Assembly (NCBI RefSeq): GCF_014304815.1
Contig: NZ_CP047958.1
Coordinates: forward strand, 1,364,001 to 1,428,000
DNA: 64,000 nt
Direction: 5' to 3'
DNA from: Synechococcus sp. MIT S9220
GTDB lineage: Bacteria; Cyanobacteriota; Cyanobacteriia; PCC-6307; Cyanobiaceae
The translations under genes were made by a program, and so were the position numbers. The notes under the pieces are model-generated. The model was not told the origin of the DNA, ran no database searches, and worked only from the letters and a program-made list of their open reading frames with translations. How positions within the stretch are numbered: the first letter of the stretch is position 1; every line of letters starts with the position of its first letter. Positions 35,647-62,944 of the stretch are shown here, one piece after another.

Positions 35647-35949
35647 CATCCTTAACTGTGCCGACCTTGACATGGAAGTGATGCGCGAGCACAAGGCTCA
35701 TTGCTTCTCGCTCAAACTCAACGTGATCGGCGACCACAGTCACTGATAGCCATGCAAGGTATCCCACAGGCTGGATTAAGCAGCTGAACCATTGCTTCCA
35801 GAACCTCAACTGAATGGGTGTCCAACACCTGTGAGCAAAATCACAGCTCCTCTTGATCTCGATCATCAAGGCCAATCAACAAAACGGGAAAGCTGAGTTC
35901 ATTCAGAGGCCAGGCCCCAATCCGGTCTCCAACGTTCTCACCTCCTCCC
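35647..35949. other. intergenic region before the calpain-like gene
   Basis: About 300 bases. A minus-strand frame here translates to protein-like text (GYLAWLSVTVVADHVEFERE), but it has no bounded gene structure and overlaps the amidohydrolase 3' end, so it may be a decayed gene. No hairpin or RNA seen. Confidence 0.3.
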
Positions 35950-38136: not shown

Positions 38137-38167
38137 CTTCAGCTATCAACCCAACACAACCAACACA

Positions 38168-38192
38168 AAGGTGGCTGCGGCCACCTTTTTTA
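38168..38192 (+). terminator. rho-independent terminator after the protease gene
   Basis: The hairpin AAGGTGGC/GCCACCTT lies 31 bases after the stop codon, with a very short loop, and runs directly into TTTT. Confidence 0.88.
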
Positions 38193-38320
38193 TTGCAGTC
38201 ATCAAAGAACTACGGAATAAGTGAGAGCCAGGCTTGCTGACCATTGTCTAAAGATCGAAAACGCTCAAGTGATGTTCAGCACACATGATTCTGGCCAAAA
38301 GGTTCTGAGCAGTCGTGCAA

Positions 38321-39904: not shown

Positions 39905-40031
39905 ATCAAATTCAGTCTCTACAACTGAAATTACCTCGAATGACGCAAAAGACGTCCAATCAAGTCAAAGACCTGGGTCAAACAGGGCTGTTGATTCAGC
40001 CGAGGCCATACCTCGATTTAGGCTCAATCCT

Positions 40032-40943
40032 TCAGGAGGACGCTTGAGCTTGATCACGAATCATGCTCCAAGCCTGGTCAGCTGTATCAGCAAACTGGAA
40101 TAATTGCTGATCCTTATCATCAATCAGACCCGAGTCGGCCATGAAGTCAAAATCAATCAATCGTGACCAGTAATCAGTGCCGAAAAGAATGATCGGCATC
40201 GCACTTTTAGACCCAACTTGTCGGAGTGTCAGAACTTCAAAAAGCTCATCCAACGTGCCAAAACCGCCTGGAAACAACACTGCACCAACAGAGCGCATCA
40301 CAAAATGGAACTTACGCAGTGAAAAGTAGTTGAATTTAAAACACAACTCTGGAGTGATGTAAGGATTTGGATATTGCTCATGGGGAAGATCAATATTGAA
40401 ACCGATCGAACGGCAGCCAGCGTCAAAAGCTCCACGGTTGGCAGCTTCCATAATCCCAGGACCGCCACCAGTCACGATCACATGGCTCGAGCAGCAAGAA
40501 GCGGAGCTATCACCTTGTTGGCCATATTTGGAAGCCAAAAAAGCAAATTCACGTGCTGAATCGTAGAAACCTGAAAGCTCTACAAGTCTTCGGGCTTGAT
40601 CCACTTTGCGTTGTAACAAGGGGGAGCTTGGGTCAGCATTCAGTGCATCAACTGATTGCGCCAGACACGCCTCTGCAGCTGAGCGTTCTTGAACGCGAGC
40701 ACCTCCGAAGACGATGATGGTCGAGGTAATTCCAGCCTCCTCAAGCCTTAGCTCTGGCTTACTAATCTCCAAAAGCATCCTGACCCCGCGCATCGACGAA
40801 CGATTCAGCAGGTCAAGGTCATGGTGAGCCAGCTTGTAGGTGTCCGAATGAATGATCTGATCAAGGTTCTGTGCAATCAAGTCCTGATCATCACTGAGAA
40901 AGCTGGAATCACTTGATGCTGAAGACATTGATGAACCATCCAT
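40032..40943 (-). CDS. LOG-family protein (TIGR00730; putative nucleotide hydrolase/decarboxylase-like)
   Basis: A 303-residue lysine-decarboxylase-like protein. It has the family's two signatures: GGGPGIMEAANRGAFDAG and LFPGGFGTLDELFEVLTLRQ (PGGxGTxxE). Relatives include the plant cytokinin-activating LOG phosphoribohydrolase and bacterial PpnN. The ~60 N-terminal residues before the Rossmann-like core are an extra helical region. The role in cyanobacteria is uncertain; nucleotide-monophosphate glycosidase activity is the best guess. It precedes, by 23 bases on the same strand, nothing recognisable except the gene at 40967 upstream. Confidence 0.83.
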   Translation of the reverse strand: MDGSSMSSASSDSSFLSDDQDLIAQNLDQIIHSDTYKLAHHDLDLLNRSSMRGVRMLLEISKPELRLEEAGITSTIIVFGGARVQERSAAEACLAQSVDALNADPSSPLLQRKVDQARRLVELSGFYDSAREFAFLASKYGQQGDSSASCCSSHVIVTGGGPGIMEAANRGAFDAGCRSIGFNIDLPHEQYPNPYITPELCFKFNYFSLRKFHFVMRSVGAVLFPGGFGTLDELFEVLTLRQVGSKSAMPIILFGTDYWSRLIDFDFMADSGLIDDKDQQLFQFADTADQAWSMIRDQAQASS

Positions 40944-40966
40944 AACAACAGGTTGGCGGCATGGTT

Positions 40967-41770
40967 TTATGACATCACGCCCATTTCATGAAGGGTGGTC
41001 ATGACCTGTTGTCGTGCAGCCGCTTCAGTGAGCCTTGGGTTCTCTCTTTTGGTGTTCAAGACCATCTGCTTAAACATCTCTCGATGGTCGCTTGAAGCAT
41101 GTTTGAGCCACTCTTCATATTCCGACCTGGTTTCGTTCAACAGCCTCTCCTCAAACATCTTTTTGTAATGGGGATAAAGGAAGGCATGGTCTCTCTCACA
41201 TCGAATCCCCATGTCCGTTAAAAGCTGCATCGACGATCGACCACTGAGGTAGCTCAAGCCCACTTTTTTCTTGTGTCCGAGCCAGTCGCATGCAGAGGCA
41301 AGAGCTTCATACGCGCCTTGCTGGTTGTTCATCACAAGCTGTTTCCAGTTGTCATAGGTGTCCTGATCAAACTGGCCGAGGATCAATGTGCGAATGGCTG
41401 AGGGTGAACATCGGAACCGTTTGCCGGTCTTCACTCCCAGTGTCCAGGCCGGATACTTGTGCCTCTTGCCTGCTTCGTCGCTGAACGCAAGCACGACCGC
41501 CCAAAGCCCACACATGAAGGTGATGCTGTGTGGATGCTTCACCACGAACACACCATGGCCTTGTTGACCCTCTGGCACTGGGGCCAACAGATCTGGCTTC
41601 CAAATCTTGTGGTCCTGGTTCTCTTCAGTCCATCTGTCGTGGTCGAACCACTTGCGGGACGCCTCAATCTCCTCAGGGGTGGCGTCCTTGAAATTCTGAT
41701 TGAAGATCTCGTTGGTCCGCCTGGATGAATAGCCATCACCGGCCTCAATCTCTTGCGCAAATGCCGCCAT
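40967..41770 (-). CDS. hypothetical protein (267 aa), function unknown
   Basis: A soluble 267-residue protein with no signal peptide or membrane segment. It is rich in Trp, His and charged residues (EEIEASRKWFDHDRWTEENQ), has a central hydrophobic block with Cys (HPHSITFMCGLWAVVLAFSD) and a helical C-terminus (EMFKQMVLNTKRENPRLTEA). I do not recognise the family. It lies 23 bases upstream of the LOG gene on the same strand, so the two may be co-transcribed. Confidence 0.65.
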   Translation of the reverse strand: MAAFAQEIEAGDGYSSRRTNEIFNQNFKDATPEEIEASRKWFDHDRWTEENQDHKIWKPDLLAPVPEGQQGHGVFVVKHPHSITFMCGLWAVVLAFSDEAGKRHKYPAWTLGVKTGKRFRCSPSAIRTLILGQFDQDTYDNWKQLVMNNQQGAYEALASACDWLGHKKKVGLSYLSGRSSMQLLTDMGIRCERDHAFLYPHYKKMFEERLLNETRSEYEEWLKHASSDHREMFKQMVLNTKRENPRLTEAAARQQVMTTLHEMGVMS

Positions 41771-42398
41771 CAGTCAATCAAAGCTGCTGCTTTGCCAGCG
41801 CCCATGAGGGAACGATCCAGCCACACCATTTCCACTATTGGAGGTTTTGCCATCCAAGGCAATGCGCGATTCGACCGATGCCAAAAACGTCTCTGCGGGT
41901 GGAGAGTGAGGCCACGCAATCGGAGGAACCAAGCATGGTCGACACTCCACCTGAGCAGATCGCAGAAGCAGACTGACTTCTGGCCCCTGCTCCAACAGTC
42001 TCAACAATGACCTGGGTTGGTCGTTTGGTTAGGTACACATCAGATACGTCACGCCAATCGACGCTCCACTCGCACCGCCCTAGGTGCCCTCGGAGACAAC
42101 AACCCGACACCTAGAGCGCATGGCCCCAGGGCGCCTCTAGCCAGAAGCTTCGACCCCTTCCTTTCTCGACAAGCGATGGGTTGAACAATGCACAAACGAG
42201 CGACTTAGGCCGTCTTTCCATCGGGAAGGGCGGCCTTCCTCTTTGGTGATGGCCTCATTGCGCAGGTGAATGGTCCTGGTTTCCAATGACTCGCCGCTGA
42301 ATCCTGCAATGGCAACGCAGAGAGCTTGTCGTTTTCGTTCCTTCCATTGTCGTGAGACATGGTCATCGACACGCTTGAGAAGAGTGCTCCTCCTGGCC
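41771..42398. other. intergenic region with hairpins
   Basis: About 630 bases with no confident gene. A 32-residue acidic frame starts at ATG 41878 (PKTSLRVESEATQSEEPSMV) but has no ribosome-binding site. Inverted repeats occur at 42081-42114 (CTAGGTG/CACCTAG) and 42207-42236. Confidence 0.35.
42207..42240. terminator. probable hairpin terminator
   Basis: Arms AGGCCGTCTTTCC and GGAAGGGCGGCCT can pair with G-U wobbles around a short loop, and are followed by a pyrimidine-rich stretch (TTCCTCTTT). Which gene it serves is unclear; no plus-strand gene lies just upstream. Confidence 0.4.
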
Positions 42399-51637: not shown

Positions 51638-51868
51638 TCACTCCACTAACGGCGCACTGTGAAAGTTCCAGCTGTCACCGTCCTCCAGCCACAGCTCCCA
51701 GTTCATCGCCGTTCCATCACGAAGACGCAAGCGTCCTCCAAAACCAGCAGGAGAGGGTTGGTAGAGATCGGATAACTCGATGACTGTTTCGCCATCGCGC
51801 GCCAACAGCAGTTCAACAGGTCGACCGATCCGTTGGGACAGGTCCTGACGCAGCTCATCAACGGTCAT
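51638..51868 (-). CDS. small hypothetical protein (76 aa)
   Basis: A 76-residue acidic protein: MTVDELRQDLSQRIGRPVEL, then TVIELSDLYQPSPAGFGGRL and MNWELWLEDGDSWNFHSAPL. Starts with ATG 51868, overlapping the TGA of the upstream gene by one base (TGATG), so it is coupled to it. No family recognised, no signal or membrane segment. The 269 bases to the CAAD gene hold nothing evident. Confidence 0.65.
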   Translation of the reverse strand: MTVDELRQDLSQRIGRPVELLLARDGETVIELSDLYQPSPAGFGGRLRLRDGTAMNWELWLEDGDSWNFHSAPLVE

Positions 51869-52182
51869 CAATCAGGAACGCTGAAATCAAGCACCAGGTC
51901 ACCGAGATCCTCACGGCTGATGGTGAAAGCAAAGCCGTCAACCTTGCCGCTCCAGACCCCTATCGCAGCATCAGCAGCCGTGCCCTCCAACTGCTCCACC
52001 TTGTGATCAAAGAGAACGGAGAAACAGTGAGCCGCCACACGAGCAGCCTGGTCCTCATCCATCTCATCGAGCTCATGCGCCTGAACCGTGCATCCCTCAA
52101 GCAGTTCGGCATCAATCACATTGCCGCCGCCAACGTCGGCGACAAGAGCCTGCAATCCGGCAAGTTCGCTGTTGTCTGTCAT
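51868..52182 (-). CDS. small acidic hypothetical protein (104 aa)
   Basis: A 104-residue protein with a long helical, acidic first half (CTVQAHELDEMDEDQAARVA) and a beta-rich end (GVWSGKVDGFAFTISREDLG). No known domain recognised. It is the upstream partner of the 51638 gene and the last host-like gene before the integrase. Confidence 0.65.
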   Translation of the reverse strand: MTDNSELAGLQALVADVGGGNVIDAELLEGCTVQAHELDEMDEDQAARVAAHCFSVLFDHKVEQLEGTAADAAIGVWSGKVDGFAFTISREDLGDLVLDFSVPD

Positions 52183-52270
52183 GTCGTCATTGACCGTGTT
52201 TAGTAGTTAGAACTGGTGATCACAGGGTTTCTACCTCGTCATCGTTGTAAAACTCGTAAAACGACAGCGG

Positions 52271-53449
52271 ATGGGCAGACCCAAGAAAACAATCCAACGA
52301 CGGACCAACGGTATCTACATCGTCCAGATATGGCTGGGTGGCAAGCGGCATGTGAAAAGCCTTGAGACCAGGGATCCAGAGAGAGCTGCAGCAAGAGCAG
52401 CGCAGGCAATCAGGAAGCTGCAGAAGGAAGCATCTAGTGGTTTCAATCGCTGGGATGAGCATCCAGCTGAAAAGCCATTAACCGAATGGCCGGGACCAAT
52501 CCCCTACAAGGTCGATGGACGTCCAGACGTTGAGAGCATCGAAGAGGTTCCTGACAGAGAGACCACATGGGGTGAGTTCTGTGAAGACCCAGAGATTCAG
52601 ATAACCCCACCACATCAGACCGACTGGCTGGACCTAGTCCGTGAAGCGGAGAGCGTTCGTAAGCGCAAGCACAAGAAGCCTTACTCAGCCAGTTGGCACA
52701 AGAACGTAGGCATCTCGATCAAGCAGGTGCCCTTCACGCTGCAACAGGCGTCAGCAAAAACCATCAGAGACTGGATCAAGTTGATGGAGAAGCAGGGGTT
52801 GAGTGGTCTCACCATCGCCAATAAGTGCACTCTGCTCAGTGGCTTAGTTGATACCTGCATCAAGAGCGGACTACTGGCAGGTCAATCGAACCCGTTCGGG
52901 TTGGTTGACTATGCAGCAGGTGAAGCTGACCACATAACACCAGCAGAGGAGCAGGACTATCGAGGACTGAAGGACCTCCTACCGAACCTGGATATTCGGT
53001 TCCAGCTACCGATCCTGATCCAGGCTTATTGCGGGACACGGATCTCTGAGGTGCTTAAGCGAGAAGCAGAGGACTTTGACCTAAGCAAAGGAACGATGGA
53101 GGTAGCCGTGGGGACTGCAAAGAACAAAGCAAGCGAGAGAACCATCCCCCTACCCCCTCAAATCGTGGAGATGTTGAAAGGGTTTGACTTTGCATGGGGG
53201 TCACAAGCAACCATCAACAAGTGGCTGAAGACTGTGAACTCTGAAGTCACGTCTCACTCATTCCGTCATGGACTGACAAAGCTGGCGCGTGATGAACAAG
53301 CAGATCAGATCGGTCTAGAAGCAATGCTCGGTCATGTCCTGTCTCACTCACATATGGCAAACATGTATGGCGGCAAGTACGGCCACGAGGCCATGAGGAA
53401 GGCTGTGGAGCCCGTCTGGACGCAGTTGGATAAATGGATGGGTCTATGA
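52271..53449 (+). CDS. int: tyrosine recombinase (phage-type integrase)
   Basis: A 392-residue site-specific recombinase. The N-terminal part has an arm-type or AP2-like DNA-binding start (GRPKKTIQRRTNGIYIVQIW), then a core-binding helical domain (~115-200) and the catalytic domain. Catalytic residues are Arg257 (CGTRISEVLKRE), His329 and Arg332 (SHSFRHGLTK), His355 (LGHVLSH) and Tyr366 (NMYGGKYG), so the set looks complete and active. It integrates or excises the adjoining island. It is transcribed into the island, with 88 bases separating it from the divergent host genes. Confidence 0.92.
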   Translation: MGRPKKTIQRRTNGIYIVQIWLGGKRHVKSLETRDPERAAARAAQAIRKLQKEASSGFNRWDEHPAEKPLTEWPGPIPYKVDGRPDVESIEEVPDRETTWGEFCEDPEIQITPPHQTDWLDLVREAESVRKRKHKKPYSASWHKNVGISIKQVPFTLQQASAKTIRDWIKLMEKQGLSGLTIANKCTLLSGLVDTCIKSGLLAGQSNPFGLVDYAAGEADHITPAEEQDYRGLKDLLPNLDIRFQLPILIQAYCGTRISEVLKREAEDFDLSKGTMEVAVGTAKNKASERTIPLPPQIVEMLKGFDFAWGSQATINKWLKTVNSEVTSHSFRHGLTKLARDEQADQIGLEAMLGHVLSHSHMANMYGGKYGHEAMRKAVEPVWTQLDKWMGL

Positions 53450-53976
53450 CGTTTGAGCTGTCTTCCGACAATGAGCGTCTCAAAAGAGGATTTCTTGACT
53501 CGATAGGGGCAAAACCACAACTGGTTTGGTGATTTACGACTCTAGGGTTAATCAGCAACTCTCCTAGCGATAGTCATCATGCCTATAGCTACTAAGTACT
53601 TCTAATAATTACTAGTAGTACTAATTTCAAATAGGTATGTCGGACTGGAAGTCTTGGGCAAGCTGGACAGCTTCGCTGTTAGGTAGAAACTCTTTTTCAA
53701 GAGTCTTCCTAACTGGCAAAGCCCATCGTCGCTACCCATTTCAAATGAGGTAGAGGTCGCCCATTGATGCCACAGCCAGTGTCATACGAGGGTTGGGGAT
53801 AATATTCACGTCTAGATCCGGTGCTGTTAAGCCGAGTCCTGTTGGGTCATCATCAGACCAGACACGAGTTACTCCACACAGTCGCTGTGCTTTCATCGTG
53901 TCCCTTTTACATCTCAGCTAATCAGTTCCCTGATCGGCTGTGCTTCGTTGATGGGTTTGATAAAGAGTTTTCCTTC

Positions 53977-54230
53977 TCTCTAATAGGAGACCTTTGCGGT
54001 TGTCCCTGTATTAGGCCGCCTTTGCAAGGCTCCTCTTAAGAACCCGCCTTTGCGGTCTTCCCCTGTAATAGCCAGAGGCGAGGAAAGCGTATCAACCTTA
54101 TAGGGGTGGGTTTGCAATTGGTTCCTCTATTAATCAGGTTTTGCCCCCTCTTATAGTGAGGGGGTGACTGTTACCCTTGATAGGCAGGGTTAGCAATCTC
54201 CTATCTGCAAGCCTCTCTAAGGCCTGTTAA
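53977..54230. repeat. degenerate ~28-base tandem repeat array
   Basis: Units anchored on TTTGC start at 53993, 54021 and 54049 (exact 28-base spacing), then 54111 and 54140 (29 bases). After TTTGC each has a purine-rich step, then TCC(C)CTNTWATAG, and often ends GCC before the next TTTGC. Partial units flank them (CTAATAGGAGACC at 53980; TAGCAATCTCCTAT and CTGCAAGCCTCTCTAAGG near 54190-54220). Copies are diverged and unit length varies where spacer is inserted, so this is not a CRISPR array. Possible recombinase arm sites or a repetitive RNA. Confidence 0.6.
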
Positions 54231-54258
54231 ATCTGCTGGATAGGATTACATGCTAAAC

Positions 54259-54285
54259 AGCCCCAAGAGAGATGCTCAAGGGGCT
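54259..54285 (-). terminator. probable terminator of the 54320 lipoprotein gene
   Basis: Arms AGCCCC/GGGGCT (54259-54264 and 54280-54285) with a 15-base loop are followed, on the minus strand, by GTTTAGC. It lies 35 bases after the lipoprotein stop. The T run is poor. Confidence 0.45.
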
Positions 54286-54319
54286 TGCAGGCGTCGCTCA
54301 GGGAATGTCGTATCGAGAC

Positions 54320-54679
54320 TTAGAACCTGAAGTACCTGTAGTTGCTGTTGTCTCTGCTGTCGAAGCAGACGATCTGCCTCTCTTCATGTACACAGTTGAC
54401 GATGTTTTGCTCGCGTGTCTTTGAAACGTTTTCGTAGTTGTGTTCCCAATTCCACTCGTTGCACTCTTGCGTGGTGAATGGACCATTGCACTCCATCTCA
54501 GCAGGTGGTGAGATGTATGACTTCCTCACTCGCTCTGAATAGGTCTCTGTGTACTTGCCAGCCATTGTCATGTAGTCATTTGAAGTAATCACTGCCTCTC
54601 GCATCGAGCCGTAGCTCTGGGAGCTGCAAGCGGTGACGATGAAAGCAATTGCAATGAGTAGTGGTGCGAAGCGTTTCAT
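54320..54679 (-). CDS. small lipoprotein (119 aa), function unknown
   Basis: Signal peptide MKRFAPLLIAIAFIVTACSS with lipobox VTAC (Cys18) indicates lipid attachment at a membrane. The mature part has several cysteines (ECNGPF, QECNEW, VNCVHEE, IVCFDS) and ends in aromatic NSNYRYFRF. The paired-Cys tail plus aromatic end resembles that of the 55858 lipoprotein, so they may be diverged paralogues. Four bases separate it from the upstream 54684 gene, so they are one operon. Confidence 0.72.
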   Translation of the reverse strand: MKRFAPLLIAIAFIVTACSSQSYGSMREAVITSNDYMTMAGKYTETYSERVRKSYISPPAEMECNGPFTTQECNEWNWEHNYENVSKTREQNIVNCVHEERQIVCFDSRDNSNYRYFRF

Positions 54680-54683
54680 CTGC

Positions 54684-55535
54684 TTAAGCGCAAAACTTCT
54701 TCGCAGCTATGTCAACAGCTGTATTGCTTTGTATTGGTCTCCAATTGCTTCCGTATGAACTAAGAGACTCCCAGGAATTGCACCTGACAAAGCTTGTCTG
54801 CTTCAAGTATGACTTCACATTGTATGAACCATACCTGAAGTTGCGGTCAAAATCTATTTCTATTTGACTCCCTCTTCTTGACGCAAGTCTTACAAAAGTA
54901 TCGAAGCAGTTCTTGGCGGAATCTTGCCCAAAAAATCCAATCCTCTGCCAGCCTGGGCCATAGGGAGGCATTGGCTTGAACTTGCACGACTCTCTCATGC
55001 AAGACTGTCTCCATTTGCTAGCAAATGTTTGATTTAATTGTCGTGCTTTTTTGTCATGTCCTCTTACATATTTGCTTACAATATTCGGGTGAGCATTGGC
55101 ATAATCTTTGGCAATTTGCTTGTAATAAAAATCATAACTATTACCTCTGCAGTTCCCTTCGTTAGCAATTGGATGAACGAAAGGTATAGGGTACATATGC
55201 CTGTACCTTCTTACTACTTCTGTCTGCCTAACAATACCTTTTGAATCGGTCATAATGCATGGGCCCCTGTAAGTAGAAGACTGCCATCCTTCTTCGCAGG
55301 TCAGGAAGCCGGCATTTTTAGCAGACCTTTTCAAACACTTTTGCCATTTATCCCAGTCGAAATCTTCGTGTTCAATATTATATTGGTAGCCAAGCTCATA
55401 TTTATCACAGCCAAAGTCAAAATGAGCCTTGGCTTTTGGAATGGAAATACTGCCAAAGATGGTCAACAGAAAGACAAGCACCCCAGCTCTGTACGTTTTG
55501 CCGTTGGCTCGTCTTTCGAGTGTGGATTGGTTCAT
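54684..55535 (-). CDS. exported cysteine-rich protein (283 aa), function unknown
   Basis: After a basic N-terminus, a signal segment (GVLVFLLTIFGSISIPKAKA) is followed by a mature part with about ten cysteines and many aromatic residues (FGCDKYELGYQYNIEHEDFD; WRQSCMRESCKFKPMPPYGP). These suggest a disulfide-stabilised periplasmic or surface protein. No domain recognised. Upstream partner of the 54320 lipoprotein on the same strand. It is divergent from the 55562 gene. Confidence 0.7.
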   Translation of the reverse strand: MNQSTLERRANGKTYRAGVLVFLLTIFGSISIPKAKAHFDFGCDKYELGYQYNIEHEDFDWDKWQKCLKRSAKNAGFLTCEEGWQSSTYRGPCIMTDSKGIVRQTEVVRRYRHMYPIPFVHPIANEGNCRGNSYDFYYKQIAKDYANAHPNIVSKYVRGHDKKARQLNQTFASKWRQSCMRESCKFKPMPPYGPGWQRIGFFGQDSAKNCFDTFVRLASRRGSQIEIDFDRNFRYGSYNVKSYLKQTSFVRCNSWESLSSYGSNWRPIQSNTAVDIAAKKFCA

Positions 55536-55561
55536 GGCTAGTGGTTTTTATTGAATGATCT

Positions 55562-55858
55562 GTGAAAGGGCAGGGGATACGCATCCCCCATTCGAGCCAT
55601 TTAGAAGGTTCAGCTTTGGTGCCAACGGGGGATGTGCTCCAGATACAGCACTGCGAGGGTGACAAGAGAGCACAAGTCACCTTGAACCAACAGCAAGTCG
55701 AGCAGTCGTACTGGAGGGACCTTGAGTCAGCGTCATCTCAGGATCTACAGCAGTACCTGGAGGAGCTAGATGTTCAGCACTACTTCAGTGCCATCCATCC
55801 TATTGTCAGCAAGAAGCTAAGAGCTTGTGCAGCTATCTGTATTTGTGAGGAGGAGTGA
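55562..55858 (+). CDS. hypothetical protein (98 aa) ending in the AAICxCEEE tail
   Basis: Frame from GTG 55562. The middle, GDVLQIQHCEGDKRAQVTLN then a helical DLESASSQDLQQYLEELDVQ, looks like a small regulatory or binding domain. The end ACAAICICEEE is shared with the 25-residue fragment at 56168. The TGA overlaps the next ATG (55858), so it is coupled to the lipoprotein. A hairpin GGGGAT/ATCCCC falls in its first codons (55573-55588), which makes the start uncertain. Confidence 0.5.
   Translation: MKGQGIRIPHSSHLEGSALVPTGDVLQIQHCEGDKRAQVTLNQQQVEQSYWRDLESASSQDLQQYLEELDVQHYFSAIHPIVSKKLRACAAICICEEE
55573..55588. repeat. hairpin GGGGAT-N4-ATCCCC
   Basis: Perfect 6-bp arms around ACGC. A close relative (GGGAT-CAGC-ATCCC) is at 58566-58579. 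Both lie near gene boundaries in the island. Confidence 0.5.
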
Positions 55859-55864
55859 TGAAAG
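55824..55864 (+). repeat. 41-base duplicated junction, copy 1
   Basis: The end of the 55562 gene plus the start of the next lipoprotein gene recur at 56211-56251 with 35 of 41 bases identical. The stretch contains GTGAGGAGGA, a strong ribosome-binding site, and the TGATGAAAG stop/start overlap. Confidence 0.8.
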
Positions 55865-56163
55865 CTTGGCCTTTGCTGTTAGCTGCTTGTGTCCTTTCCG
55901 GCTGCGAATCCAACCCTACATATTCCACTCCAAAAGTTCAGTACTTCTATTCATCTGAGGAACTTATTAGAGATATGCGTAGCTGGGAAAGTTCTGGTGG
56001 TCAAACCTCTTATGATGATGTTTCTGGCAAGTTTGTATCAACGTTTCAAAGAAAATGTCACCGTGATCCTGTAGCCAAACCAATGAGCTACATCTGCCAA
56101 GAAAAAAAATACAATGAAGATTGGAATAAATCCAAGTATTACTATTTCAAGCTAAGGACTTAA
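55858..56163 (+). CDS. small lipoprotein (101 aa), function unknown
   Basis: Signal peptide MKAWPLLLAACVLSGCESNP with lipobox LSGC (Cys16). The mature part has a helical stretch (SSEELIRDMRSWESSGGQTS) and two later cysteines (KCHRDP, YICQEK), ending in aromatic SKYYYFKLRT. ATG 55858 is preferred to the GTG one codon before, and is preceded by GGAGGA. Overlaps the stop of the 55562 gene. Possible distant paralogue of the 54320 lipoprotein. Confidence 0.7.
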   Translation: MKAWPLLLAACVLSGCESNPTYSTPKVQYFYSSEELIRDMRSWESSGGQTSYDDVSGKFVSTFQRKCHRDPVAKPMSYICQEKKYNEDWNKSKYYYFKLRT

Positions 56164-56167
56164 GGCT

Positions 56168-56245
56168 ATGACTCGAACACGAAGTTCTGCGATTGATAAG
56201 GGAGAAAAGGCTTTTGCAGCTATTTGCCTCTGTGAGGAGGAATGA
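56168..56245 (+). pseudogene. 25-residue remnant of the AAICxCEEE gene
   Basis: ATG 56168 opens a 25-codon frame whose end, FAAICLCEEE, repeats the end of the 55562 product, and whose stop overlaps the next start (ATGATG). The rest of the longer gene is missing. It is either a truncated duplicate or a translated leader retained because it couples to the following gene. Confidence 0.45.
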
Positions 56246-56251
56246 TGAAAG
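56211..56251 (+). repeat. 41-base duplicated junction, copy 2
   Basis: Second copy of the 55824-55864 stretch, 6 mismatches. It again ends at a stop/start overlap in front of an exported-protein gene. Confidence 0.8.
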
Positions 56252-56670
56252 TCTATTACTTGATGATGGCTATGGCATTAGGTGGTTTACCTGTTAATGC
56301 CCAGTTAGACCAGCAGTGGAAGCAGCGTGATGCAGAATTTGCTAATTGCAGGCAACGTTATGAGGATGCTCAATATTCGGGTGGAGGATCTAATTGGTTA
56401 ATAGATAAGCAGAACAACATATTCAGCCTTAGCAATGAAACCCCACAAGTAAATTTATCATTTTTGTCAGGCAGTGATAAAGGTCCGAAGGCTGTTATGA
56501 GATGTTTTGACCATCATATGGCAGTTTTGAACAAACAGAAGAGGTCAGGCGATTACGAGTGTTTGTACAAAGTAGAGAGTAATGAATTAGTCAGATATTG
56601 CAAAAGAGATGGACTCAGCGAAGTCACAAGAGAAGTGTTAGGCAGAAATAGAAATAGGCCGGTGCACTAA
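56242..56670 (+). CDS. exported protein (142 aa), function unknown
   Basis: A signal peptide (MMKVYYLMMAMALGGLPVNA) is followed by a charged helical start (DQQWKQRDAEFANCRQRYED). A central Ser/Gly region and paired cysteines follow (MRCFDH, YECLYK, RYCKRD). It is not a lipoprotein. The start is ATG 56242 or 56245. The TAA overlaps the next ATG (TAATG), so the zinc-ribbon gene is coupled to it. No family recognised. Confidence 0.65.
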   Translation: MMKVYYLMMAMALGGLPVNAQLDQQWKQRDAEFANCRQRYEDAQYSGGGSNWLIDKQNNIFSLSNETPQVNLSFLSGSDKGPKAVMRCFDHHMAVLNKQKRSGDYECLYKVESNELVRYCKRDGLSEVTREVLGRNRNRPVH

Positions 56671-56930
56671 TGCCAATGAAAAACCAGTTCATGAATAAGC
56701 AACTAGGACTGCCAATTAATCCTCAGTATTGCCATTCATGCTGGAGGTTAATGTATTACACATTCGACTATGACAGGCATTATTTGATTTGTAAGGAATG
56801 CCGAGAAAGACCTACTAAGGCAAACAACAGTACAATTCGCTCAGGCAATCCAGTCATTCAATTCATTAGATTCATTTCACGTATCTGTCAGATTATCAAA
56901 GGCAAAGACTACTTAGACTTAGATGACTAG
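56670..56930 (+). CDS. small zinc-ribbon-like protein (86 aa)
   Basis: Two CxxC knuckles, YCHSCWRLMYY and LICKECRERP, about 20 residues apart form a probable zinc ribbon. The C-terminus is basic and hydrophobic (IQFIRFISRICQIIKGK) and could lie on a membrane. Coupled to the exported-protein gene upstream by one-base overlap. Nucleic-acid or protein binding is possible; function unknown. Confidence 0.6.
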   Translation: MPMKNQFMNKQLGLPINPQYCHSCWRLMYYTFDYDRHYLICKECRERPTKANNSTIRSGNPVIQFIRFISRICQIIKGKDYLDLDD

Positions 56931-57367
56931 GGCTGATCTCCATGCCTCTGCGAAAAGCGAATAGATAGCGCTTAATATATGAAGAACAGATGACAGTAGC
57001 TGCCAACAATTAGCCTCCTTGTCTAACACTTAGGGCTGATTGCTACTGATGCCTGTTAGTAGTGATCAGTGCACCTGCCTGCCACTTCAGTCAGGAGTCA
57101 CCGTAGGCCCGGTCTTTCCCATAATGACCACAACTCAACGCTGATCTACTGCGCTGCAACGGATCACAAGGGATGACCATGCTTATGTATTGCGTCATCG
57201 TCGTAGAACTGCAGCGGTGGAGCCACAAGGACTGCAGAAATAATCTCCAGACCAGGTCAGCAAAGGGCTTTCTTTGATTCTTGGGCAACAGCCACCACAG
57301 GAGGTAGACCCACCCATGGGGGTATTTGCGTCCTTATGGTTACGTATATAAGGCCTGAGAAATTTTG
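56931..57367. other. island intergenic region
   Basis: About 440 bases between convergently oriented genes. I see no gene; a 32-codon frame at 57179 is not convincing. An inverted repeat ACCCACC/GGGGGT lies around 57307-57323. No T run or tRNA. Confidence 0.4.
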
Positions 57368-57823
57368 TCATTTTCTGAATGGCTCATCCCAGCTGTAGGA
57401 AGAACCTGAGATATAAACCCTGTCAACTTCTGATTCTTCAGAACCATCTAGAGGCCTGCTTAAGTATTCCACATAAGCAGCCACGCTCCACATATCCTTG
57501 AACTTTTTGTTAGGTGATGGATCACAGTATCCACGGATGATATTGATTTTTTCGTATTCTTCATCGAGAAGGAATGTCCATTTAAATGTGTCGTAGTACT
57601 CATCTAGATACTTGTCGAAGTCTTCCTTCTCCAATTTTTGATATCGAGCACGATCAGAGTTCCACAGCTTTCGTTCATCTCTGATTTGATCCAGAGCTTC
57701 GCCAAGTTTGTCGTCGCAGAGCTTCATCGCTTCAGCACGGCTAGAAGCAGATGGTTCGGGTCGAGGAGTACAGGCAGCAAACCCCAGTGCGAAAAGCAGT
57801 ATCAGTAGGAATTTCAGCTTCAC
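57368..57823 (-). CDS. lipoprotein (151 aa), function unknown
   Basis: Signal peptide MKLKFLLILLFALGFAACTP with lipobox FAAC (Cys18). The mature part is helical and highly charged (CDDKLGEALDQIRDERKLWN; KEDFDKYLDEYYDTFKWTFL) with Tyr/Trp-rich segments. It lies 3 bases downstream of the 57827 gene and is the last of a three-gene minus-strand run. No domain recognised. Confidence 0.7.
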   Translation of the reverse strand: MKLKFLLILLFALGFAACTPRPEPSASSRAEAMKLCDDKLGEALDQIRDERKLWNSDRARYQKLEKEDFDKYLDEYYDTFKWTFLLDEEYEKINIIRGYCDPSPNKKFKDMWSVAAYVEYLSRPLDGSEESEVDRVYISGSSYSWDEPFRK

Positions 57824-57826
57824 TGT

Positions 57827-58228
57827 TTACTCCGAACATGCAAACTTGATCAATGGTCTGTAAGCAGGATCTGCCTGTTTGAAATTGGCGCTTTCATAAG
57901 CCTTAAACTCCAATGTTTTGCAGTTTGCTATTCGTAAGAACTTGTCTTTGGGTTTAGATTCTTTGTTGTTCCATCCTATGCCCGTGGTGGGTCTTTTATC
58001 GCTATCTAATGGGACCCAGCCATCATAATAAAAGACAAGATCACCTTTCTTGACTACTGATTGCAGGTCTATGTAATAACCCAGTCCCCACCAGTTGTAC
58101 TCCTCAGCAATCGTTCCAGGTTTAGGCTTGCCATGCATTTCCCATGAAGCCATAACCCAAGTCTCTCCAGCTTGAACTGATGGGATTGGAATTAAAAGCC
58201 CAGCAATAACTGCGGCAATCCTTTTCAT
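57827..58228 (-). CDS. exported protein (133 aa), function unknown
   Basis: Signal peptide from MKRIAAVIAGLLIPIPSVQA, then a beta-rich mature domain with TWVMASWEMHGKPKPGTIAE, YYIDLQSVVKKGDLVFYYDG and the cysteine pair IANCKTLEF/IKFACSE. The overall plan resembles small surface-adhesin-like (CNP1/adhesin E type) domains, but I cannot assign one. ATG 58228 overlaps the stop of the zinc-finger gene by 4 bases. Confidence 0.68.
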   Translation of the reverse strand: MKRIAAVIAGLLIPIPSVQAGETWVMASWEMHGKPKPGTIAEEYNWWGLGYYIDLQSVVKKGDLVFYYDGWVPLDSDKRPTTGIGWNNKESKPKDKFLRIANCKTLEFKAYESANFKQADPAYRPLIKFACSE

Positions 58229-58440
58229 TGGCTTACATCCTCCTTCGGCCATTTGAGCAACTTTCCGTTGAACGTGGTTTCACCATGGATGCCATGGACT
58301 TCCCATAAGTGCTGCCTTAAGCCGACGAACTGCCAGGCATGCCCAAACTGCTTGCCGCATTCAGGGCAATAGCTCTTGAGGGGATTTCGCTCGTTCATGG
58401 GTTCAGCTTGGCCTGAGACCTGGCCCAAAGCATCCCTCAT
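58225..58440 (-). CDS. small C2H2-like zinc-finger protein
   Basis: A 71-residue frame from ATG 58440 (a second ATG at 58398 would give 57 residues). SYCPECGKQFGHAWQFVGLR then QHLWEVHG gives C-x2-C-x15-H-x4-H, with F four after the second Cys and L three before the first His. This is the layout of a classical C2H2 finger with about 3 extra residues in the loop. Bacterial C2H2 fingers are rare. It is coupled (ATGA) to an exported-protein gene, an odd partner for a DNA-binding domain. Confidence 0.6.
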   Translation of the reverse strand: MRDALGQVSGQAEPMNERNPLKSYCPECGKQFGHAWQFVGLRQHLWEVHGIHGETTFNGKLLKWPKEDVSQ

Positions 58441-58565
58441 TCTGGGGAATCTCAGCCGTATTCATTCGAAGTGATGCTCTGTGCCTGACCTGATCCAGCA
58501 ACGGCACAGCCAACCAACAGCATTGTTAGATGATTGAGCTTCTGTATCGATACGGTCCTTTGCTT

Positions 58566-58579
58566 GGGATCAGCATCCC
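58566..58579. repeat. hairpin GGGAT-N4-ATCCC
   Basis: Perfect 5-bp arms around CAGC, similar to the hairpin at 55573-55588. Lies just downstream of the 58622 micropeptide. Confidence 0.5.
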
Positions 58580-58621
58580 CTGAACACCTCGCTGAGCGGA
58601 TCCCCCAAAGGAGGTAACTCG

Positions 58622-58711
58622 CTACTTCTTTTTGGCCTTATCAGCTTCATTGATCTGGTTCATGCCTAGGCCGACCAGAAGAGCAACAGTGAGAACAAGG
58701 GTGGAAGTCAT
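58622..58711 (-). CDS. putative 29-residue single-helix membrane micropeptide
   Basis: Minus-strand ATG at 58711, stop at 58622. The product starts MTSTLVLTVALLVGLGMNQI and ends with a charged EADKAKKK, a typical one-helix micropeptide with the basic tail inside. No strong ribosome-binding site. Size makes it uncertain. Confidence 0.4.
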   Translation of the reverse strand: MTSTLVLTVALLVGLGMNQINEADKAKKK

Positions 58712-59224
58712 GGCTCGAGCTAAACGCATGAATTGAGTGTCTGCCACTCGGCATGCGATGCCATCCCCCAAGTGAGCCAATCGCTTGACGACCACCCCTT
58801 TTCGGGAGTAGTACAGGCGTACTTGCTAGTGATGGGCGATGGACGGATGGCTTTCAGATCCGAAGGGTTATTGGCTTGCACGTTTTCATCGGGACCCAAA
58901 GAGCACTTTGGCCAGAGATCAGAGGGTTTACGTGGACCACGGGCGGCCAATGCCAGAAGGACCTGCGCTACTCAAAACCTGAAGGGAAATGCGTTACGAG
59001 GATGCAGCTTCTCTGTGGTTCCAGCTCAAGAGGCTTGGGTGGACCGTGACCGAACCCGCCTGGGGTGGTGATATGGAGCCTTAGAAGTCAGCCAGGAAGT
59101 CCTTGCGGCCATCAACAGAGGCAGTCGGCTGGAAGACCACCCGAATGGGTGATGTGAATCCGATTGATTCAGGCGATGGTGAAGAGGTCCAGGAGGGATG
59201 ACCTCCACTATCTAAAACAATCAA
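58712..59224. other. island intergenic region
   Basis: About 510 bases. Overlapping frames on both strands (58733-59071 plus, 58720-58950 minus) give no recognisable protein and neither has a ribosome-binding site. Higher G+C than the flanking island genes, so it may be older host sequence. Confidence 0.35.
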
Positions 59225-59635
59225 ATGAAACTTCGATTGATCACCACAGGCCTGCTTAGCTCAGGCCTATTACTAGCTGGTTGTAGCGCTGCATCGGTTT
59301 CTTCTAAATCTGAACGTTGGAAAGTTCAAGAAGTGGCAATGATGGCAATGACTCGATGTCTCGTAACTGGTGGTCACTTTAATAGAAACGATGCTGCGAA
59401 GTTCATTGCTCAAGCGAATCAAGAACAGAGTGGTCAGTTTCAGCGCGTATATGATTCAATGGCAACAGGAGTTTCTGCGTCTGTAAATCAACAAGTCGCT
59501 GATGCAATATCTCAAAGCGGAGGGTGCAGACTGATGCTTACTAAATTTGTCGACTCTGAGCCCCAAACCGACTTCAAGAGGCGCATAACTAATGACTGGT
59601 TGTTAAGTCCAATTGAGTATCCAGACGACAAATAG
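59225..59635 (+). CDS. lipoprotein (136 aa), function unknown
   Basis: Signal peptide MKLRLITTGLLSSGLLLAGC with lipobox LAGC (Cys20). The mature domain is largely helical (VQEVAMMAMTRCLVTGGHFN; KFIAQANQEQSGQFQRVYDS) with a second Cys pair candidate (SGGCRLML). Followed directly by a hairpin terminator. No domain recognised. Confidence 0.72.
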   Translation: MKLRLITTGLLSSGLLLAGCSAASVSSKSERWKVQEVAMMAMTRCLVTGGHFNRNDAAKFIAQANQEQSGQFQRVYDSMATGVSASVNQQVADAISQSGGCRLMLTKFVDSEPQTDFKRRITNDWLLSPIEYPDDK

Positions 59636-59636
59636 C

Positions 59637-59661
59637 TAGATATATTCGCATCTATTTTTTT
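59637..59661 (+). terminator. rho-independent terminator of the 59225 gene
   Basis: Arms TAGAT/ATCTA (59637-59641, 59650-59654) with an 8-base loop run into seven T. It begins two bases after the stop codon. Confidence 0.7.
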
Positions 59662-59748
59662 AATGTCGGGAAGCCTGAAGCCATGAAAGCGAGGCTGAGA
59701 GCTATACAAGACCCGAAAGGGAAAAGCAGGGGGCGTTGAGTAGTCGCT

Positions 59749-59767
59749 ATCGATCTCCCGACAAAAC
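59749..59767 (+). repeat. 19-base direct repeat, copy 1
   Basis: ATCGATCTCCCGACAAAAC lies 33 bases before the 59801 lipoprotein gene. It recurs at 60660 with one change, and both are soon followed by AATTTTCT. Confidence 0.85.
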
Positions 59768-59800
59768 CATCACTCAAAGAATTTTCTGAACCTCTTTGTC

Positions 59801-60619
59801 ATGTTTCACCGATTAAGCAAGCCTTTAATACTTTGTCTTCTTGGAGTCGCAGTGGCTTCGTGCGCTTCACCCAAGTCAATAGTATCTACATACCTAAAAT
59901 CGCCCGTTGACTCAAAGAAAAGGTATGACACAATCTGTGAAAAAGATGTAGTTTCTCTATCCGAATTCAGAGAATACTATTCACCTGAAAACAATTCAGA
60001 TATTGCAAATTGGACAACCGAAAATATTAAATTTGACAGCAAGGCAGGAAGATATACATATATTTCGGCTGACCATGAAATAGGGTCAAAAACTCAAACA
60101 TCAATCTATAAGACTTTTAAGAAACAAAATGGTGAGTATTGTGTTCTATGGACATCGCATGGACGAGTAATTGGCGACCTTAGTGTCTTGATTCGTTATC
60201 CTGAAACCAAGATAACTGCATTTTTGCCAGTCGAATTAAGCGACTATTACAACTACGATTTCAACAATAAAGAGAGAAGCCACATGGCTTTAACTGTTCT
60301 AGACTCTTCATTAAAAAACAACCCTACGATCTATATTCCATATAACGGAAATGAAAAGCTTTATCAATACATAAAGACTGCAGACAATCCCGTCATTAAG
60401 GGAGTCGTCAGCCGAGAGTACACTCTGGATCTTGACACTGAAAAGGTTGATCAATTCAATAAATCACTCCGTAACTTAAAGACCTTGCTATCACAATATG
60501 ATACAGGCGAGGATATTGAGTACATGGGGTATAAGCGTTCTTATGTTACTGATGACAGCAGTATTCTGTATATGCCAACAGCAATTCCAGTTACTGCTTC
60601 TGCAAGCGAAAATCGTTAG
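59801..60619 (+). CDS. large lipoprotein (272 aa), function unknown
   Basis: Signal peptide from MFHRLSKPLILCLLGVAVAS with lipobox VASC (Cys21). The mature part is mixed alpha/beta and low in G+C (DTICEKDVVSLSEFREYYSP; YGVL-type strands; DNPVIKGVVSREYTLDLDTE). Two cysteines besides the lipid one (TIC, EYC). The gene is flanked on both sides by the same 19-base repeat, as if it were a separate module. No domain recognised. Confidence 0.7.
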   Translation: MFHRLSKPLILCLLGVAVASCASPKSIVSTYLKSPVDSKKRYDTICEKDVVSLSEFREYYSPENNSDIANWTTENIKFDSKAGRYTYISADHEIGSKTQTSIYKTFKKQNGEYCVLWTSHGRVIGDLSVLIRYPETKITAFLPVELSDYYNYDFNNKERSHMALTVLDSSLKNNPTIYIPYNGNEKLYQYIKTADNPVIKGVVSREYTLDLDTEKVDQFNKSLRNLKTLLSQYDTGEDIEYMGYKRSYVTDDSSILYMPTAIPVTASASENR

Positions 60620-60639
60620 TTTCTTGATGCGCTCGACCT

Positions 60640-60655
60640 ACACCCGTATGGGTGT
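60640..60655. repeat. hairpin between the 59801 and 60717 genes
   Basis: Perfect arms ACACCC/GGGTGT around GTAT, 20 bases after the lipoprotein stop. No T run follows; it may act as a weak terminator or RNA stabiliser. Confidence 0.45.
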
Positions 60656-60659
60656 TGCA

Positions 60660-60678
60660 ATCGATCCCCCGACAAAAC
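60660..60678 (+). repeat. 19-base direct repeat, copy 2
   Basis: ATCGATCCCCCGACAAAAC lies 38 bases before the 60717 gene. It differs from copy 1 at one base. Confidence 0.85.
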
Positions 60679-60716
60679 AATTTTCTATTTTATTCTTGAG
60701 CTGGCAGCAGACTTTG

Positions 60717-61364
60717 ATGAAACTAAAACATGTAATTGGCTATTCACTACTTGTCATTGCAATGGTATTTAGTGGAGTTATGCCGAAGCTGTATGTAGGG
60801 CAGAAAGATTCTTTGGTTTCTATTGCTAATGCATCAGCACCCAATGGAATGCAGGAAGATAGCTTTGGTGGTTTGGCAGATGACCCAGTCTTCAAAGCAG
60901 TCATAAGGAGTGGTGGCCAAATTGCCTTGGTCACTAATATCGATCCGATTGCTGGCCTGCCAGATGCCTCAGGATTGTGGAACCCAAACAATGGCACGAT
61001 AGAAATAAAGGCTGGAGAATACCCCTATGAATACTTCACATCAGTCCTCAAGCATGAAGCTATTCATATGGCCCAGTCATGCAGTAATTTTGCTTATACA
61101 CTTAGTACTCCCTCAGTACCACTGGGATTAGAAGTCACTGCAGAAGGAATGCAAGACCTAGCTCAATACAAGTATTCTCACCCTGCGTATTATCGCAATC
61201 CAGTAGAACGCGAAGCTTATTCCAATGATTCTAAGAGTTCTGAATATGTGGCGAATTTAGTAGAAAGGCATTGTGGTTCAAAGCCATGGATTGGCTGGCT
61301 AGGAAAGATTCGCGGCAGACTTCAACTTCTAAGTACAGGTAGTGAGACTGGGAATTACCGGTGA
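60717..61364 (+). CDS. secreted or membrane-anchored putative zinc metalloprotease (HExxH)
   Basis: From ATG 60717 a 215-residue protein. The N-terminal hydrophobic segment (HVIGYSLLVIAMVFSGVMPK) is a signal peptide or anchor. The mature domain contains NGTIEIKAGEYPYEYF followed by VLKHEAIHMAQSCSNFAYTL, with HEAIH at 113-117 as the zinc motif, and an acidic late helix (EREAYSNDSKSSEYVANLVE) that could supply the third ligand. Family not identified. The stop overlaps the GTG of the next gene, so they are coupled. Starts further upstream give text overlapping the lipoprotein. Confidence 0.7.
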   Translation: MKLKHVIGYSLLVIAMVFSGVMPKLYVGQKDSLVSIANASAPNGMQEDSFGGLADDPVFKAVIRSGGQIALVTNIDPIAGLPDASGLWNPNNGTIEIKAGEYPYEYFTSVLKHEAIHMAQSCSNFAYTLSTPSVPLGLEVTAEGMQDLAQYKYSHPAYYRNPVEREAYSNDSKSSEYVANLVERHCGSKPWIGWLGKIRGRLQLLSTGSETGNYR

Positions 61365-62098
61365 AAAAATACTACGTTTACTTGATCAAAGCCACGAACT
61401 CAAACGGCTTAGTAAAGATCGGACGCAGTAGCCGTATTGATGATCGATTGCGTGAGCTGGAATGTCCACCAGAGAATGTCATTCAGCTGGCGGATTGTAT
61501 GATAGAAATACGAATGAAAGCCACTGAAAAAGTTCTGCATAAAAAATATGCCAAATGGCGTGTTCCTCAGTCTGAAATGTTCAACCTATCGGATGAACAG
61601 ATCAAGGAATGCAGTTTGATTCTGCAATCAATCAATGCCAAGGCAGTTGAGGCAAGACAAGCTGCACACGACGCCACAGTGGCTGAATATGAACGCAAGG
61701 CAGCCGAGCAAGCAGAACGCAAGGCAGCTGCTGAACGTGAAGCTCTTGAGCGTGATAAAAAACTGTGGCCTGTTGAGAATGGTGTGCTGAGAGATCCACC
61801 AACATTGGCAGATTCAAGACTAGGTGAATCCACGTGGGACCCAAACCGCACCCATCAGGGCAGACCAGGAGCACCGACAAAGCCCTATCCCTTCAAGCAA
61901 GATCTAAAACCAGCGCCTGACAAAGGAGAAGAAGCGCAATTCGTCTGCGAAATTATGCCGACTGCCTTTGCATGGATTGCTGGTGCTTGCTTCCTGGCTG
62001 CCGGGCTAGTGCAGCTAACTGCCGTTCCAAGCACAAACCAATTCGAACCGCTTTTTGATGTTCAACAACACAACCGACCGCGAACTTCAGGAGATTAA
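61361..62098 (+). CDS. GIY-YIG-like (T5orf172) domain protein with C-terminal membrane helix
   Basis: A 245-residue protein starting at GTG 61361 (GTGA overlap). Residues 1-85 match the T5orf172/MUG113 branch of GIY-YIG: KYYVYLIKATNSNGLVKIGR (Tyr-x-Tyr, KIGRS), DDRLRELECPP, and LHKKYAKWRVPQSEMFNLSD with the Glu of SEMF. An Ala/Glu/Lys coiled coil follows (~95-133), then a Pro-rich linker, and a membrane helix near 200-222 (FAWIAGACFLAAGLVQLTAV). A nuclease-type domain tethered to a membrane is unusual. Function unknown. Confidence 0.72.
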   Translation: MKKYYVYLIKATNSNGLVKIGRSSRIDDRLRELECPPENVIQLADCMIEIRMKATEKVLHKKYAKWRVPQSEMFNLSDEQIKECSLILQSINAKAVEARQAAHDATVAEYERKAAEQAERKAAAEREALERDKKLWPVENGVLRDPPTLADSRLGESTWDPNRTHQGRPGAPTKPYPFKQDLKPAPDKGEEAQFVCEIMPTAFAWIAGACFLAAGLVQLTAVPSTNQFEPLFDVQQHNRPRTSGD

Positions 62099-62101
62099 AA
62101 A

Positions 62102-62422
62102 GTGACAACCATTCACTGGCCTTACTTCGATCCTGATTACCTAAAGAACTGGGTTAAAGAAAAGGGATGGCAAAACCTGACAGATGCAGAACGATGCCTT
62201 GTCATTAAATCCTGTAAGTCTGAGATGGAAGTTGCTCAACTCATTGCAATGCCATCTATAAAACGCAAGAGAAAAGAAACCTTGCTCAGCGAGATTGATA
62301 CTTCTACAAAAGACGGATTGAAAATGTTTCTTTGGCAGGTGCAACAGTTGTCCTTAGATATCGATCCTGATGAATATGTCATCTATAATGTTCCGCAAAG
62401 AGGCCAGGGCCTTCATGGATGA
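62102..62422 (+). CDS. hypothetical protein (106 aa)
   Basis: Starts at GTG 62102, three bases after the previous stop, so it is likely in one operon with the 60717 and 61361 genes. The product is soluble and charged (WVKEKGWQNLTDAERCLVIK; IKRKRKETLLSEIDTSTKDG) with a helical middle. No family recognised. Confidence 0.6.
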   Translation: MTTIHWPYFDPDYLKNWVKEKGWQNLTDAERCLVIKSCKSEMEVAQLIAMPSIKRKRKETLLSEIDTSTKDGLKMFLWQVQQLSLDIDPDEYVIYNVPQRGQGLHG

Positions 62423-62468
62423 ATTCCGCGTTGATGCCTACCGGAAAGACGGTTCATTAGAGGTCTGA
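62376..62468 (+). CDS. possible 30-residue small ORF overlapping the 62102 gene
   Basis: In another frame from ATG 62376 (or ATG 62388) the sequence reads FRKEARAFMDEFRVDAYRKD and stops at 62466-62468. Its composition is protein-like but it overlaps the previous gene by 47 bases and has no clear ribosome-binding site. Confidence 0.28.
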   Translation: MSSIMFRKEARAFMDEFRVDAYRKDGSLEV

Positions 62469-62944
62469 AGCTCTCGCAAAAACCGTGGTAGAACCCGCCT
62501 AATGAACTACGAGAGGCCCTGCAAATACTGGATTACTTGACAAGTCGTCATTGTCCACGAAGGACGTCATCAATGCTGAAGTGCTACAGGGTTATAGCCA
62601 TCAGATGACGTGACAATCAGCCGACGAAGAGCCAGTGGCTCACCTGTCAGCAGAAACCCTTGATCCTGCACGTTGAGCAAATCGATTTGTTTCTGCAGCT
62701 CAACTCACGAAACCAAGTACAGCAGCAAAGACAAAGACATCTCAATGATGACCACCGACCAACAACAAGTCGATCATCAAATCATCAGATCAGACACTTC
62801 AACAGAGATGAATCACTGACACGAGATTTAAAATAACAACAGTTCCACAAGCGACAAAACATGAACTCATTGTGAGCTCACCACAAAGAACTGACCAGTC
62901 ACGGATTGTGCTGTCAACTTGAACAAACCATTCGAAGGGACTTC
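62423..62944. other. right boundary region of the island
   Basis: About 520 bases with no gene apart from the doubtful frame at 62376. It contains GTCGTCATTG (62544-62553), also present at 52183-52192 before the integrase. Inverted repeat GTCCACGAAGGAC occurs at 62554-62566. The osmC promoter should lie near 62880-62930. Confidence 0.4.

Follow-up and report, generated by a model that had tools for sequence, protein, structure and literature searches.

The last part of a 64-kb stretch of the Synechococcus sp. MIT S9220 genome (the window: positions 1,364,001–1,428,000 of a single contig of 2,424,175 bases) most probably carries a 10.4-kb site-specific integrative element. One of its cargo genes lies in a frame of two dispersed elements, A before the start codon and B after the stop codon, and B would act in cis as a structured RNA of the 3′ untranslated region (UTR). 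We assign a probability of about 80% to this reading. The island exemplifies a known kind of element well and has an unusual attachment site; the shared RNA frame is the larger finding. No published description of B was found in the literature searched, and B is apparently undescribed so far.

Insertion Site and Attachment Cores

The ends of the element and the genes next to them are as follows (window coordinates).

51868–52182, minus strand: target gene of 104 amino acids (aa), function not recognized; its start codon abuts attL (open reading frame (ORF) listing)
52183–52192: attL core GTCGTCATTG, also present in the uninterrupted site of five relatives
52271–53449, plus strand: intact tyrosine recombinase (integrase) of 392 aa (ORF, Pfam PF00589, PHROG)
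62544–62553: attR core GTCGTCATTG, the second copy of the core, at the right end of the island

The insertion measures 10,361 bp from core to core. Its G+C content is 0.46, as compared with 0.58 at 43–52 kb and 0.61 at 15–32 kb of the window, in line with the AT-richer composition claimed in the original prediction. Lower G+C values were also seen in two other stretches of the window (10000–15000 and 32000–42000).

Regions around the insertion site were fetched from 19 relatives, the MIT S9220 genome being the twentieth. An uninterrupted site was found in five of them (G001, G002, G010, G016, and G024). In G002, the blastn match of the left flank ran to 52195 and that of the right flank started from 62538, with an overlap of 19 bases, and the flanking genes are separated by about 0.4 kb. 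The other four displayed the same junction, with the right flank broken further on by other DNA. In all five empty sites, GTCGTCATTG has the left neighbor of the left end and the right neighbor of the right end, which fits site-specific recombination. Some of the 19 regions showed one flank only, and one (L079) showed neither. When the final 16 kb of the window were compared with these regions by blastn, none of the 19 matched inside 52196–62537. The original prediction had described an integrase-borne island of exported proteins whose neighbors should be directly adjacent in relatives that lack it; the joined flanks in five genomes come close to this arrangement and uphold the island.

L061, a relative with the empty site, carried chromate-transporter-like halves and another gene at 3467–5599, between OsmC and the 104-aa gene (labels by eye), and L065 was similar. 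The distance from the 104-aa gene to OsmC in distant relatives was rejected as proof of a hotspot; the stretches examined hold ordinary-looking genes (by eye).

The integrase scored above the Pfam cut-off (PF00589, E 1.2e-9) and matched a PHROG integrase with an E-value of 9.9e-32. It had been predicted to be intact, with R257, H329, R332, H355, and Y366. Intactness was confirmed, and the first four residues aligned with IntI4 (2a3v) in a weak match (E 0.68, second stretch below zero bits); Y366 was assigned from the sequence reading. An integron was rejected, as the protein scored 17.7 bits with the NCBIfam integron integrase model, whose cut-off is 265. A phage integrase of a known kind was also rejected: three phage records matched, with 25–31% identity, none of them covering 80%.

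Start Codons as Attachment Sites

The GTCGTCATTG core directly adjoins the ATG of the 104-aa gene, for which 28 of 99 searched genomes, including that of MIT S9220 itself, gave a match. In the empty site of L061, the reading frame of this gene could begin five codons further upstream; the insertion would thus lie just before the gene or swap out its first codons. ARAGORN detected no transfer RNA (tRNA) within the window, and none was found in the 14–19 kb loci around six related integrases, so a tRNA attachment site was rejected.

Nine of 60 genomes, the MIT S9220 genome among them, had an integrase match at E ≤ 1e-10. The position of two remnants could be determined (in G021 and G016), each at apparent start codons of other genes. 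Their left flanks were present in 23 of 40 and 15 of 40 genomes (occupied genome included), and the 10 and 6 other genomes aligned at the G021 and G016 sites, respectively, were all uninterrupted. The empty sites read CAT-GGCTGCG-ATG and CAT-GGCGG(C/T)G-ATG; each shows two apparent start codons, one per strand and separated by seven bases, at which the remnants begin. G007 has an integrase fragment less than 200 bases from the left flank it shares with G021. Start-codon sites at three loci suggest that the integrase prefers to insert at start codons. Such an attachment site would explain islands missed by tRNA-anchored searches. More distant integrases (27–28% identity) were observed in G010 at 1620150 and on contig C7 of G002 at 72078; the latter contig also carries A and B, about 9–10 kb away.

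We consider it quite unlikely that the island is an ordinary tycheposon, or a relative among phage satellites, at a secondary, non-tRNA site. Tycheposons are elements of marine picocyanobacteria and other plankton; the host group is probably the same, and the island resembles them in its tyrosine recombinase at one end, its cargo, and its length, which falls within the 4–200 kb quoted for them in a part of PMC10872708; tycheposons are also listed among proposed phage satellites in a section of PMC11389934. The likeness to tycheposons suggested in the original prediction stands for the recombinase and the size. It fails for the tRNA border: no tRNA was found at the loci described above, the core lies at the start of a protein gene, and start-codon sites occur in three genomes. 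In addition, the cargo consists mostly of unrecognized exported proteins and not of nutrient genes. It contains no packaging or replication family above the Pfam cut-off, and none was seen in PHROGs. The dusA-targeting integrative elements (IMEVchUSA3 and its relatives), as presented in a portion of PMC8409611, insert at the 5′ end of a gene and give it a new upstream region. The tyrosine recombinase of the island likewise uses the 5′ end of a protein gene as its site, swapping the upstream DNA, but the target gene, host group, and cargo are different.

Element B, a Structured RNA

A search with the island DNA was carried out on 300 family genomes (own and 299 others), with two candidates scored per genome. 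A match was found in 39 of the 300. The 299 other genomes matched the island by fragments only, the longest of which (G020) is an integrase relative (72%, about 0.8 kb). Two short non-coding stretches, A and B, recurred in many of the matching genomes. In the island, they flank a lipoprotein gene on its 5′ and 3′ sides. The original prediction mentioned neither these elements nor the exact ends of the island (52183 and 62553).

59133–59213, plus strand: element A, a dispersed 5′ element (profile hit), ending about 12 nucleotides (nt) before the start codon
59225–59635, plus strand: lipoprotein, the payload of the A-gene-B unit (ORF, unit comparison)
59664–59771, plus strand: element B, structured RNA (model R1, 125.9 bits), 29 nt after the stop codon
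60645–60682, plus strand: possible truncated 3′ half of B, weak, after the 272-aa gene (28-nt repeat, 86%; model E 0.12, not significant)

The fold of B comprises about 105 nt in five helices: a closing stem, a two-part hairpin around a conserved CUGA/UGARA internal loop, a CCC-GGG hairpin, and a fourth hairpin. The loop of the CCC-GGG hairpin varies among GAAA, GCAA, and UUCG, and the unpaired bases of B are conserved as well. In an alignment of 41 copies (A1), 96% of the cells were paired and 11 of the 19 pairs had changed on both sides, as compared with 1–4 compensated pairs in slid controls and 0 of 500 shuffles. In a second alignment of 92 distinct copies fitted to the model (A2), 16 of the 19 pairs were compensated; the slid controls gave 5–9 and the shuffles again 0 of 500. 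By this comparison of sequences, B is a conserved structured RNA. No Rfam match for B was obtained at 50–64 kb of the window (E ≤ 1), in 15 of 21 viral loci (gathering threshold), or at the element in 6 loci (E ≤ 1).

B was detected in 51 of the 300 family genomes, belonging to 9 of 59 genera, with up to 12 copies counted per genome; the numbers per genome are lower bounds, 12 candidates having been scored in each. The fetched loci contained 96 model hits of B (four of them duplicate places) and 63 copies of A. Nine B hits were dropped before counting: the four duplicates, two on short loci (L100, L112), two near locus ends (L148, L178), and a weak hit in L137. The 87 copies kept are not independent, because copies of close relatives are included. 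In 55 of the 87, a stop codon lies 5–20 nt ahead of the start of B; the same holds for 4.5% of 2000 random positions. A terminator-like hairpin lies within 110 nt of B in 53 of the 87 copies, against 23 of 600 random windows.

The pattern of B was also found in named genomes, in 43 stretches, of which 21 were tested with the model. The record of Synechococcus WH7803 (CT971583) contains hits of this pattern. No match at E ≤ 0.001 was obtained in the Ruminococcus, Bacillota, two Chryseobacterium, Bryobacteraceae, and 'Cyanobacteria SW_9_44_58' loci. Scores of 95–112 bits were reached on contigs binned as Planctomycetota, Gammaproteobacteria, and Blastopirellula; TMED88 was weaker (52 bits). The strong copies (L225, L254, L233, L260) sit on contigs of MAGs (metagenome-assembled genomes) assigned to these three groups. 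The contigs from non-cyanobacterial bins are perhaps mis-binned cyanobacterial ones.

The A-Gene-B Frame

A is about 80 nt long and ends 3–66 nt upstream of a start codon, mostly 13–19 or 29–42 nt. It lies upstream of B, on the same strand and within 1.5 kb, in 55 of the 87 B copies, downstream in 15, and on the opposite strand in none; conversely, B was found no more than 1.5 kb downstream of 55 of the 63 A copies. The loci were selected around A or B, so this association comes from a non-blind sample. A as a conserved coding peptide was rejected owing to one- and two-base indels and in-frame stops, and A as a proven structured RNA was rejected as well, its hairpins having no clear covariation support. 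Yfr6 has about 40 nt of 5′ UTR in common with small-peptide genes (part of PMC1242208).

We collected 53 A-ORF-B units, in which the protein often begins like MKLF..IAAAAVIGAS.... Among these units, 46 mature parts fell into 35 clusters, 30 of them singletons; judged from sequence, the payloads are mostly dissimilar to each other. Some units contain more than one gene. In L121 and L122, A/B units were seen near short-peptide genes with double-glycine-like leaders (by eye).

B, together with A, might instead be a mobile or recombination sequence that moves with the upstream gene, such as the end of an attC-like cassette or a miniature inverted-repeat transposable element (MITE). Its dispersal in up to 12 counted copies per genome (a lower bound), its frequent position just past stop codons behind differing payloads, and its presence in viral contigs are consistent with this. 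However, the fold has been kept through compensatory changes and swaps of loops, and the unpaired bases are conserved too; terminator-like hairpins often follow B; some units hold more than one gene; and the core letters of attC were not seen. We regard a mobile sequence as unlikely. The 3′-UTR RNA favored here has a parallel in the L17 downstream element (part of PMC2864571), which is also a structured RNA in a 3′ UTR. Unlike that element, B stands behind many unrelated genes and in viral contigs, and it has no Rfam match at E ≤ 1 in this part of the window.

Element B in Viral DNA

A 20-base pattern of B matched 21 viral contigs, and 19 of these had best model scores of 38–100 bits. In 12 of the 19, an ORF ends 6–7 nt before B, with seven different C-termini by eye. 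Several B-bearing contigs look closely related to one another. Five proteins from five viral contigs were tested: three were terminase large subunits, one was a DNA methyltransferase, and one had no match. The occurrence of B on viral contigs hints at a control that may serve phages too.

Carriage by viral contigs and the many copies per genome would also suit a small RNA derived from the 3′ UTR, released by processing and acting in trans, or a decoy for an RNA-binding protein, employed by phages as well. The compact fold and the conserved unpaired stretches are compatible with both. On the present comparison, we hold a trans-acting RNA or decoy to be a minority possibility, rather doubtful next to cis action.

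Proposed Mode of Action

In the reading we prefer, the tyrosine recombinase joined a circular form, with GTCGTCATTG as its presumed attP core, to an identical 10-bp sequence adjoining the ATG of the 104-aa gene. The cargo brought in would be mostly unrecognized proteins of predicted secretion. The frame would consist of A before the start codon, a variable and often secreted protein, and B after the stop codon, often with a terminator-like hairpin behind it. B most likely acts in cis as a 3′-UTR element setting mRNA stability or end-processing, and its action may be coupled to the ribosome ending translation just upstream; with so little space between the stop codon and B, the terminating ribosome would sense B. 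Since the next gene follows B in the island, B may act there between two cistrons. The element would thus import envelope or secreted proteins pre-wired into a host-wide expression frame.

Several observations weigh against this reading. The element was found in one genome. Of the nine genomes with integrase matches, four have a 5′ fragment only and two a split gene; the three att sites agree loosely, and the start codons of the other two were read by eye. In folding, the B copy of the island does not stand out from shuffled sequences (z −1.41; 14 of 200 shuffles fold at least as well), so the case for the fold rests on comparison, the island copy alone being not unusual for its composition. 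This copy also lies 29 nt past the stop codon, outside the 5–20 nt band, and lacks a terminator-like sequence by the test used. Among the 87 copies, the upstream ORF ends outside the band in 21, and 11 have no ORF of at least 40 aa ending nearby. Not every gene that B follows has a predicted signal peptide: a crude test was passed by 41 of 76 upstream ORFs and by 179 of 689 control ORFs. The proposed hairpins of A gained no clear covariation support in the alignment test. Finally, a second pattern, taken from the 3′ end of B, matched no viral contig, and a blast search of B against phage and plasmid records gave no match.

A wider proposal, which we put forward as tentative and somewhat less probable than an even chance, is that a modular system of secreted proteins is common to marine picocyanobacteria and some viruses. 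Unrelated payloads would be swapped between a fixed 5′ element with a signal peptide and a fixed structured RNA on the 3′ side, shortly past the stop codon, and elements inserting at start codons would carry the units between genomes. If so, new secreted proteins would arrive already under host-wide, RNA-based control. A shared RNA behind many nameless exported genes offers a handle on the whole class and a test for one regulon.

Cargo Proteins

Marine Synechococcus has many strain-specific genes that are short and nameless and code for exported proteins. The remaining genes of the island are listed below; protein searches covered 151 family genomes, mostly of other genera.

54320–54679, minus strand: lipoprotein-like ORF, 119 aa, no Pfam hit
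54684–55535, minus strand: exported protein, 283 aa, matching its own genome only among the 151
55855–56163, plus strand: lipoprotein-like ORF, 102 aa, weak PHROG matches (start GTG 55855 or ATG 55858)
56242–56670, plus strand: exported ORF, 142 aa, with a 42-bp leader common with the preceding gene (86%)
56670–56930, plus strand: small protein whose CxxC pairs resemble a zinc ribbon by eye; Pfam gave no hit at E ≤ 1
57368–57823, minus strand: lipoprotein-like ORF, 151 aa
57827–58252, minus strand: exported ORF, 141 aa
58225–58440, minus strand: small C2H2-like protein (C2H2 E 0.043, below the Pfam cut-off)
59801–60619, plus strand: lipoprotein-like protein, 272 aa, matching its own genome only among the 151, no match in phage records
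60717–61364, plus strand: exported zinc-peptidase-like protein (HEAIH), matches in 46 of the 151 genomes, own included
61361–62098, plus strand: T5orf172 (GIY-YIG-superfamily) protein (PF10544, E 4e-12)
62102–62422, plus strand: protein of 106 aa, no Pfam hit (ORF)

By prediction, the cargo is largely unrecognized exported protein, and an envelope function is plausible. Only the integrase and the T5orf172 protein scored above the Pfam cut-off. The two largest exported proteins (283 and 272 aa) matched nothing but themselves in the 151 genomes. The altered contact with phages, grazers, or nutrients put forward in the original prediction may be an effect of the cargo; the hints of it, given below, are weak. 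The protein at 60717–61364 is called peptidase-like because HEAIH is kept in three of five relatives inspected (L292, L294, and L296), all of other genera. The original prediction had taken the whole cargo as unrecognized; this applies to most of it, the T5orf172 and HEAIH proteins being the exceptions. The five lipoprotein ORFs it listed (54320, 55858, 57368, 59225, and 59801) all exist, with lipobox-like motifs by eye, and its GIY-YIG-like protein proved to be T5orf172. The two zinc-finger-like proteins are less secure, given the C2H2 E-value of 58225–58440 and the lack of a Pfam hit for 56670–56930.

No conjugation family scored above the cut-off in the cargo scanned with Pfam and NCBIfam; TrbH was marginal, at 14.8 of 160 bits. 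The T5orf172 protein matched the PADLOC predicted defence candidate PDC-S57 (E 4.5e-10), a weak hint. A defence island was rejected, as PADLOC gave only this match and two marginal JetB matches for 57368–57823. The protein at 55855–56163 gave weak hints of an Rz-like spanin family (PHROG, E 0.004) and of Cor superinfection exclusion (E 0.066); the weak PHROG matches of the cargo (spanin, Cor, and protease; E 0.003–0.07) carry no weight in our conclusions.

The 42-bp repeat, with a GAGGAGG motif and 86% identity, lies at 55823–55864 and 56210–56251, before two adjacent exported genes. The C2H2-like region (58212–58464) has an 82% copy in the same genome at 939994–940249, about 1.1 kb from the other B copy of this genome (941364–941471).

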